Assembly (NCBI GenBank): GCA_016871855.1
Contig: VHBQ01000022.1
Coordinates: 1 to 43,654, forward strand
Source: Gemmatimonadota bacterium
GTDB taxonomy: Bacteria; Gemmatimonadota; Gemmatimonadetes; Gemmatimonadales; Gemmatimonadaceae
Length of the DNA stretch: 43,654 nt
Reading direction: 5' to 3'
This document shows positions 42,715-43,654 of the stretch, piece after piece; position 1 is the stretch's first letter; each line of letters opens with the position of its first letter. Under the pieces are notes generated by a model. The model was not told the origin of the DNA, did not search any database, and was given only the letters and a program-made list of their open reading frames with translations. A program made the translations under genes and the position numbers.

Positions 42715-43359
42715 ATGCCTCTTCACTCCCTCTTCGACAACAACCGCCGCTGGGCGGAGCGCCTCGCCGCCGAGAACCCGGGCTTCTTTTCCACGTTGCA
42801 GGCGCAGCAAGCCCCGGGGTACCTGTGGATCGGCTGCTCCGACAGCCGCGTGCCGGCCAACGAGATCGTCGGCCTGCTGCCTGGCGAGCTCTTCGTCCAC
42901 CGCAATGTCGCCAACGTGGTCGTGCACACCGACCTCAATTGCCTCTCCGTCGTGCAGTACGCAGTGGACGCGCTGCAGGTGAAGCATGTGATCGTCTGCG
43001 GGCACTACGGATGCGGCGGTGTGCGCGCCGCGCTGGAAGACGCGCGCATGGGGCTCATCGACAACTGGCTGCGCCACGTGCAGGACGTGAAGCAGAGGTA
43101 CGCCCCGCAACTGGCGGCCCTGGACGGCGACGCGCGCCTGCAACGGCTGTGCGAACTCAATGTGGTGGCGCAGGTGCGCAACGTCTGTGAGACAACCATC
43201 ATGCGCGATGCCTGGGCGCGCGGACAGGCGGTCACGGTGCATGGCTGGATCTACGGGCTGTCCGACGGCCGGCTCAAGGACCTCGGCCTCGCGGCGCGCT
43301 CATGGGACGAGTGCGAGGCGCAGGTGGCGACGGTGACCGGGGTCGGTGCGCCGCGCTGA
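42715..43359 (+). CDS. can: Beta-class carbonic anhydrase
   Basis: 214 residues; reversible hydration of CO2 in the cytoplasm. The zinc ligands C41, D43, H97 and C100 appear in WIGCSDSRVPANEI and VCGHYGCGGV, the same arrangement as E. coli Can (C42, D44, H98, C101). The catalytic dyad D43/R45 is kept. The length is close to Can (220). Conserved beta-class segments ELFVHRNVANVV and CELNVVAQVRNV are present. It is on the same strand as the histidine phosphatase, 45 bp apart. Immediately downstream begins the large palindromic element at 43362. Confidence 0.96.
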   Translation: MPLHSLFDNNRRWAERLAAENPGFFSTLQAQQAPGYLWIGCSDSRVPANEIVGLLPGELFVHRNVANVVVHTDLNCLSVVQYAVDALQVKHVIVCGHYGCGGVRAALEDARMGLIDNWLRHVQDVKQRYAPQLAALDGDARLQRLCELNVVAQVRNVCETTIMRDAWARGQAVTVHGWIYGLSDGRLKDLGLAARSWDECEAQVATVTGVGAPR

Positions 43360-43361
43360 GG

Positions 43362-43617
43362 GGGACGAGGGACGGGAACTGCCTTCACGACGGAGCGCAC
43401 GAAGCACGACAACGGCCTCACAGGAGAGCACGGAGATCACGGAGAACGGCGACTACAACACCTGGGGTTAACGACTGAACGCCACGCAGACTTTTGCGTG
43501 GCGTTCGCAGTTCCCCCAGGGTTTACAGTGGCCGTTCTCCGTGATCTCCGTGATCTCCTGTAGAGCAGTTGCGGTGCTCAGTTGCTCCGCGGTGACGCCG
43601 TCCCCGTTCCTCGTCCC
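43362..43617. repeat. 256-bp imperfect palindromic element with terminal and nested inverted repeats
   Basis: Starts 2 bp after the can stop. The ends are 18-bp inverted repeats with two mismatches (43362-43379, GGGACGAGGGACGGGAAC; 43600-43617). Inside, 43420-43450 and 43531-43561 pair over 31 bp with one mismatch. These arms include CACGGAGATCACGGAGAACGG. At the centre, GAACGCCACGCA (43477-43488) and TGCGTGGCGTTC (43495-43506) pair perfectly with a 6-base loop. The intervening parts are also partly complementary, so nearly the whole element can fold into one hairpin. No coding sequence is seen in it. Confidence 0.85.
43477..43506. terminator. Central perfect hairpin of the palindromic element (possible terminator of can)
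   Basis: 12-bp perfect stem, 6-base loop, 117 bp after the can stop. Because it is symmetrical and lacks a following T-run, it may serve as a terminator in either direction, but its position at the centre of the palindrome suggests its structure is primarily part of that element. Confidence 0.4.
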
Positions 43618-43654
43618 TTGCTTGCTACGCCCCCCACCGCGCCCGCCAGCGCCG

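Follow-up and report, generated by a model that had tools for sequence, protein, structure and literature searches.

A dispersed hairpin repeat and a small putative nuclease gene suggest an undescribed kind of small mobile DNA

Structure and surroundings of the palindrome

What is the long foldback sequence that follows the carbonic anhydrase gene can at the end of this contig, and how did it come to lie there? The window, i.e., the whole stretch of DNA analyzed here (43,654 nucleotides), is the complete contig C22 of a Gemmatimonadota genome (G000). An earlier note had described a near-complete palindrome of 256 bp at positions 43362–43617, and all of its described arms were recovered by reading and by computation. 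The outer arms of 18 nt are complementary at 16 positions; as a computed inverted repeat they extend to 21 nt, with the left arm (GGGACGAGGGACGG..., 43362–43382, plus strand) 86% complementary to its partner on the right (43597–43617, minus strand). The inner arms, at 43420–43450 on the plus strand and 43531–43561 on the minus strand, match at 30 of 31 positions and consist of CACGGAG iterons with a 2-nt spacer (dialect 1), inverted on the right. A 65-nt arm pair (43403–43467 versus 43514–43578) is 82% complementary. A perfect central stem (43477–43488 versus 43495–43506, 12 of 12) lies in the core hairpin (43462–43521, no strand assigned), whose left/right asymmetry (GGGGTTAACGAC... / ...GCAGTTCCCCC) is conserved according to a 36-copy alignment and pair counts. 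The arms are inverted arrays of approximately 9-bp units, each made of CACGGAG and a spacer. As the note had also claimed, a meaningful open reading frame (ORF) is absent; one open frame of 61 amino acids crosses the right half.

The 256 nt fold into a single hairpin both as RNA (−183.1 kcal/mol, z = −16.3) and as DNA (−102.9 kcal/mol, z = −14.8), and none of 200 shuffled sequences was as stable in either case. An Rfam scan of the window gave no match above the gathering score.

The palindrome is tightly enclosed by genes. The stop codon of the beta-carbonic anhydrase gene can (42715–43359, plus strand; Pfam PF00484) ends 2 nt before it. Downstream, a fatty-acid desaturase gene converges on can, its 3′ end occupying positions 43625–43654 on the minus strand; it was recognized from a contig overlap, its ORF, and PF00487. 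The window contig ends 37 nt past the palindrome, and contig C117 has its last 127 bases in identical form and then runs into the desaturase gene; hence the palindrome fills the gap between the two stop codons. The overlap, of exactly 127 nt (43528–43654), lies in the right half of the palindrome and extends past it, a pattern expected from either a strain variant or a graph break at a repeat. The nearby contig end and the overlap would suit an assembly foldback, but we rejected this explanation as having next to no chance of being correct: the overlap runs on into a real neighboring gene, a palindrome of the same type with a similar core occupies this junction in the related genome G001, the arms do not match perfectly, and the genome holds 38 other matching places.

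A dispersed family in the genome and genus

Motif repeats in the arms had earlier hinted at a dispersed family, and this proved correct. A genome search with the palindrome returned 85 matches that grouped into 39 places, window included, of the CACGGAGA family; in a few of these (e.g., L068 and L070) the core alone matched. Copies are about 130–260 bp long with 9-bp sub-repeats, and arm modules such as TTCACCACGGAGACACGGAGGGCACGGAGAACTGCAACTGC are repeated a variable number of times among them. In a 36-row core alignment (A4, which omits L063, L068, and L070), median pairwise identity was 73% and 4 of 630 pairs were at least 90% identical; the copies are, on the whole, old. The closest pair, 95% identical in the core, lies on two contigs and shares a stretch of only ~165–173 bp between unrelated flanks. 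Pairing was kept in 94.7% of the paired cells of this alignment (standard pairs), and compensatory change was above every one of 500 shuffles by four of five measures and above 499 of them by the remaining one. Part of the compensatory signal could come from relatedness or from self-templating of the palindrome instead of selection on RNA.

Two other arrangements resemble the BIMEs made of REPs. At L050 (1572–2062 on contig C107 of the same genome), three palindromes stand in tandem, and in the relative G005 CACGGAT pairs recur at regular intervals over positions 267412–267829 of contig C21.

Gene calls from a simple in-house caller placed 17 of the 39 copies between convergent genes, 17 between codirectional genes, and 2 between divergent genes, with 3 left without assignment; the excess of convergent over divergent settings was significant (17:2, p = 7e-4). 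Core orientation was random relative to the codirectional genes (8 same, 9 opposite), and on this ground we rejected a strand-specific role as RNA. No target-site duplication had been recognized at the window copy, and this extends to the whole family: among 50 ORF-bearing and 41 solo elements, none stood out above permuted flank pairs. Neither a target-site duplication nor a fixed end was found that would mark movement at base level.

The family was present in 6 of 10 genomes of the same genus, by a single weak match in G007; among 49 more distant genomes, one showed it weakly. The orthologous can–desaturase junction could be read in eight genomes of the genus, four of them occupied, in three dialects, and four empty. 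CACGGAG palindromes with a similar core occupy it in G000 and G001, a CACGAAG palindrome in G007, and a CACGGAT palindrome in G004; no palindrome of such kind is present in G002, G003, G005, or G008. In a tree of the two proteins flanking the junction, G000, G001, G002, and G005 group together as a clade (100/98). Within it, genomes with an occupied site are mixed with genomes whose site is empty, which implies several gains, or a gain with losses; the other dialects at the G007 and G004 sites imply separate arrivals or changes of dialect. The earlier proposal of a non-autonomous mobile element, MITE- or REP-like, is therefore borne out in part. Dispersed copies in genome and genus, the occupied and empty orthologous site, and the unrelated flanks of the closest pair agree with it, but the target-site duplication of a MITE and the short palindrome and HUH-type RAYT of a REP were not found.

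GxxExxY genes between inverted unit arrays

A full-length relative encoding a transposase between the same terminal inverted repeats had been envisaged; the partner looks like a PD-(D/E)XK protein, GxxExxY, instead. GxxExxY ORFs occur among CACAGAG-type repeats, which prompted a search with TIGR04256. This search found three GxxExxY genes in the genome: the first has a family palindrome directly upstream, the second lies between inverted CACGAAG arms, and the third is downstream of a CGCGGAT palindrome. In G001, the orthologue of the first sits between two full palindromes of the window's family.

We then scored arm complementarity across the gene at the loci of the own genome and at the best locus of each relative (29 loci, L103–L131; 45 of 99 genomes matched, own included), dropping L121 for its short flanks. 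The cut-off score of 33 was chosen after a first look at these loci, and controls were scored identically; 16 of 31 GxxExxY loci reached it compared with 11 of 288 controls, although L111 and L120, two of the 16, scored no higher than their own shuffles. Counting hairpins within a single flank as well gave 25 of 31 and 19 of 308; domain ends served as gene ends and are approximate for some loci in this second count.

The association extends far beyond the genus. GxxExxY genes (TIGR04256/PF13366) of many bacterial phyla are framed by the motif CRCVRAG, most commonly in the form CACAGAG. A scan of named genomes used the best 80 of at least 552 relatives (at least 593 stretches), mostly metagenome bins, from Gemmatimonadota, Cyanobacteria, Chloroflexota, Planctomycetota, several proteobacterial groups, Acidobacteria, Verrucomicrobia, Bacteroidota, Armatimonadetes, Bacillota, and others. 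Its query (A2) was built from members with CACGGAG, CACAGAG, and CACGGAA arms, so the scan leans to that type. After four loci with short flanks were dropped (L201, L228, L232, and L264), 49 of the 76 scored loci passed the arm cut-off versus 5 of 335 other ORFs of the same loci. Unit pairs were scored with a pattern (C[AG]C[ACG][AG]AG) that was set after the arm scan and applied identically to controls: 51 of the 76 loci had pairs on both sides of the gene, 16 on one side, and 9 on neither, compared with 1, 31, and 304 of 336 control ORFs. Among the 67 loci with units, the commonest forms were CACAGAG (29), CGCAGAG (14), and the window's form CACGGAG (9). Solo inverted unit pairs away from the gene, mostly clean palindromes, were found at 14 of the best 80 loci (738 kb). 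Presence in archaea is uncertain: of two loci from archaeal bins, one (L210) is flanked by unit pairs left and right, but its matched frame contains a stop codon, and the other (L254) has a unit pair on a single side and failed the arm cut-off.

Within the genus, the unit dialect tracks the enzyme. Fifteen GxxExxY proteins fall into groups A, B, and C. Two of these, A and C, form supported clades (100/100); the three proteins of group B share one locus and are placed between the other two groups, but the tree does not unite them. Group A, at the AraC–pyrE locus of G000, G001, G006, and G007, is accompanied by CRCRGAG units, group B by CACGAAG/CGCGAAG-type units, and group C by CRCGGAT units. 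With labels read by eye, dialect and group agreed at all 12 loci with readable units, an agreement that is partly trivial because orthologous loci are inherited together with their flanks. The three other loci either lack a palindrome (G007_C157) or have different flanks (G003_C68 and C64).

Genome-wide counts, which are of unit pairs as opposed to palindromes and come from genomes 78–99% complete, largely follow the genes. Genomes with an intact group A gene contain 135 (G000), 79 (G001), 82 (G006), and 25 (G003) CACGGAG pairs. G007 contains 4, and in its group A protein the ExK motif has become AxK and the conserved glutamine a proline; G004, with an empty AraC–pyrE junction, contains none. 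CACGAAG pairs number 26 in G000, 13 in G007, and at most 2 elsewhere, and CACGGAT pairs 47 in G004, 29 in G005, 8 in G006, and at most 2 elsewhere. In G008 and G010, where no GxxExxY gene was found, there were no CACGGAG pairs and at most 2 of the other dialects. A control with the pattern written backward gave 0 to 5 pairs per genome. There are exceptions: G005 and G009 have 23 and 14 CACGGAG pairs with no group A gene found, and G009 has a group B gene yet only 1 CACGAAG pair. G002 has 105 CACGGAG pairs and no GxxExxY gene found, but its contig breaks inside pyrE at that locus, so that a gene may have been missed there.

The G007 gene (L308; contig C157, 57900–60100) itself stands at the AraC–pyrE locus with both the ExK glutamate and the conserved glutamine replaced and no adjoining palindrome, in a genome 81% complete. 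It offers a natural broken-enzyme case, ready for comparison.

The GxxExxY protein matches PF13366 (E = 7.5e-39). G26, G28, E31, Y34, D71, E81, K83, and Q95 are among the residues invariant in 39 named relatives from the best matches listed, and E31, D71, the ExK motif, and Q95 are also invariant in an alignment of 22 GxxExxY proteins, so that the catalytic residues are kept in the aligned members. Foldseek searches with an AlphaFold2 model (pLDDT 91.2) gave only weak matches, none at E ≤ 0.001 (best E = 1.3e-3), led by 3ijm (a restriction-endonuclease-like protein), SSO0001 (4ic1; a Cas4 protein), RecE, and lambda exonuclease. A PDB sequence search with the GxxExxY profile returned nothing at E up to 10. 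From the conserved aspartate, the ExK motif, and the modeled fold, GxxExxY belongs to the PD-(D/E)XK family, and nuclease activity is predicted.

GxxExxY was carried by 8 of 72,556 plasmids, was absent from the phage set, and was not confirmed in viral contigs; this distribution indicates that it is no active hitch-hiker. PADLOC and PHROG families had no match to one GxxExxY protein and one four-helix-bundle protein. In open-access PMC text, we found no description of the repeat or its link to GxxExxY; six longer unit strings turned up in no paper, in a search that strings split over lines or in supplements would escape, and the short motif CACGGAGA occurs in many papers, those listed being by title unrelated to bacterial repeats. 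Titles and one passage of open-access text yielded no study of the function of GxxExxY/PF13366; the name GxxExxY occurs in two papers, in one of them for a gene beside a reverse transcriptase, and PF13366 in one on Arctic algae.

The survey for such arms covered GxxExxY and one other family, the four-helix-bundle genes (TIGR02436/PF05635). These too are framed by inverted arrays of short units, often of 7 bp (GAGAGTT, AGGTGTC, GACGGTA), and appear to be elements of parallel design built around another small protein. The arm cut-off was passed by 31 of 35 loci (L097–L102 and L132–L161, with L140 dropped for short flanks) versus 11 of 288 controls; the 30 loci from relatives are the best one per genome, with matches in 51 of 60 genomes. 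In the own genome five of six loci passed, and the sixth, L102 (G000, contig C21, 19561–20220), has a CACGGAG palindrome ~200 bp upstream of the gene, which indicates that the two element types can be neighbors. In the legend to one figure panel, a CRISPR survey (PMC10910872) lists the 23S rRNA intervening-sequence protein among newly associated partners of CRISPR adaptation modules, and the inverted unit arrays beside four-helix-bundle genes might be mistaken for CRISPR arrays.

Candidate explanations and known systems

We propose that the palindrome is probably a solo, non-autonomous copy of a hairpin element that carries GxxExxY in its full form, and that the nuclease recognizes the unit arrays and supports their copying, a reading we favor with some reserve. 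The full-form element would carry this one gene, encoding a predicted PD-(D/E)XK nuclease. The protein would bind the inverted CACGGAG-type arrays, or the hairpins or cruciforms that they form, and cut at or near the hairpin; repair or replication could then copy the hairpin unit elsewhere. Copying, both in cis and in trans, would reach new sites and leave no target-site duplication, and new copies would mostly survive where they are harmless, i.e., at gene 3′ ends and most of all where two genes converge. Arm dialect and cognate enzyme would co-evolve in the manner of REPs and RAYTs.

The main competing explanation is that the hairpins serve the host independently of GxxExxY. They would be two-way transcription terminators or RNase III processing sites that arose, or were recruited, repeatedly between convergent genes, and GxxExxY would simply sit in them. 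We rate this as unlikely. It fits the rarity of copies between divergent genes against 17 each in convergent and codirectional settings, the conserved pairing of the core, the repeated occupation of the can junction by hairpins of different sequence, and the ordinary GC hairpin that the empty AraC–pyrE junction of G004 holds. It fits less well with the four of eight orthologous can junctions that lack such a palindrome and with the random core orientation, and it leaves unexplained both the cross-phylum unit motif and its tie to one nuclease family.

Known transposition systems account for the family less readily. Inverted repeats, lack of an ORF, and dispersed copies would suit a classic MITE moved by an unseen DDE transposase, with GxxExxY as a passenger, and such an enzyme may be present, as the transposase search covered Y1_Tnp only. 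We nonetheless find this improbable: flanking duplications are missing throughout, the arms are variable arrays as opposed to fixed ends, and they accompany GxxExxY far beyond control ORFs. A REP or REPIN mobilized by a RAYT (HUH, Y1) transposase would similarly account for dispersed intergenic palindromes, tandem clusters as at L050, and the lack of duplications. This is highly improbable, given that the copies with their 9-bp sub-repeats far exceed the 20–40 bp given for REP palindromes (PMC3733652). We also rejected a RAYT as the driver, because the sole Y1_Tnp match of the genome has an internal stop and its locus (L096, 2,345 bases) contains neither a palindrome match nor a unit pair.

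Taken together, the repeat and its small putative nuclease gene suggest an undescribed kind of small mobile DNA. Tentatively, and short of thinking it likely, we extend the solo-copy reading to a class of mobile DNA spread over many bacterial phyla, and perhaps archaea too, whose single PD-(D/E)XK protein of ~120 amino acids, GxxExxY, would recognize inverted CACAGAG-type arrays and copy hairpins without transposase, recombinase, or reverse transcriptase; the S23/IVS four-helix-bundle proteins would be a second, parallel branch. GxxExxY (PF13366) is an uncharacterized putative nuclease family, found here in many bacterial phyla, and its tie to a recognizable repeat makes its substrate guessable and testable. 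If the proposal is true, it would account for the origin of many intergenic palindromes that lack an explanation, and the task of REPs and RAYTs would have been solved a second time by different chemistry.

The palindromes share features with several known systems. They are short, ORF-less, and dispersed with terminal inverted repeats, as MITEs are, and likewise are proposed to be the non-autonomous form of a gene-bearing element; the family differs in its lack of target-site duplications, fixed ends, or a transposase found by the Y1_Tnp search, and in having GxxExxY as the gene between its arms. In the foldback (FB) transposons of Drosophila, short tandem sub-repeats build up long inverted repeats, which may or may not enclose an ORF. 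This arm design is alike, but FB elements are eukaryotic, and we know of no protein common to them and the palindrome elements. Intervening sequences of 23S rRNA, as described in PMC4990558, enclose an S23 four-helix-bundle ORF in inverted repeats that pair into a stable stem, and the discussion there hypothesizes that they are a remnant of transposition or a mobile element. The likeness lies in a small ORF between stem-forming inverted repeats; protein and site differ, since the palindrome here lies between can and the desaturase gene. The family of that S23 protein (TIGR02436) is nevertheless framed by inverted short-unit arrays at the four-helix-bundle loci surveyed here as well.

The closest parallel is with REPs and RAYTs. 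REPs occupy intergenic positions, form tandem clusters, lack target-site duplications, and often carry a GTAG or CGTC tag. REPtrons (PMC8266576) combine dispersed REP or REPIN palindromes with a dedicated small RAYT (TnpA_REP) gene beside them and co-evolution of enzyme and repeat. Dispersed palindromes in intergenic positions, tandem clusters, the lack of duplications, and a small enzyme gene beside the palindromes are common to both systems. Co-evolution may be a further likeness, as dialect and GxxExxY group agree at 12 of 12 labeled loci, although many of these loci are orthologous and one group is not a clade. They differ in that the enzyme here is a predicted PD-(D/E)XK protein and not an HUH protein, that the repeats are arrays of 9-bp units spanning ~130–260 bp, and that the unit motif is recognizable across phyla.
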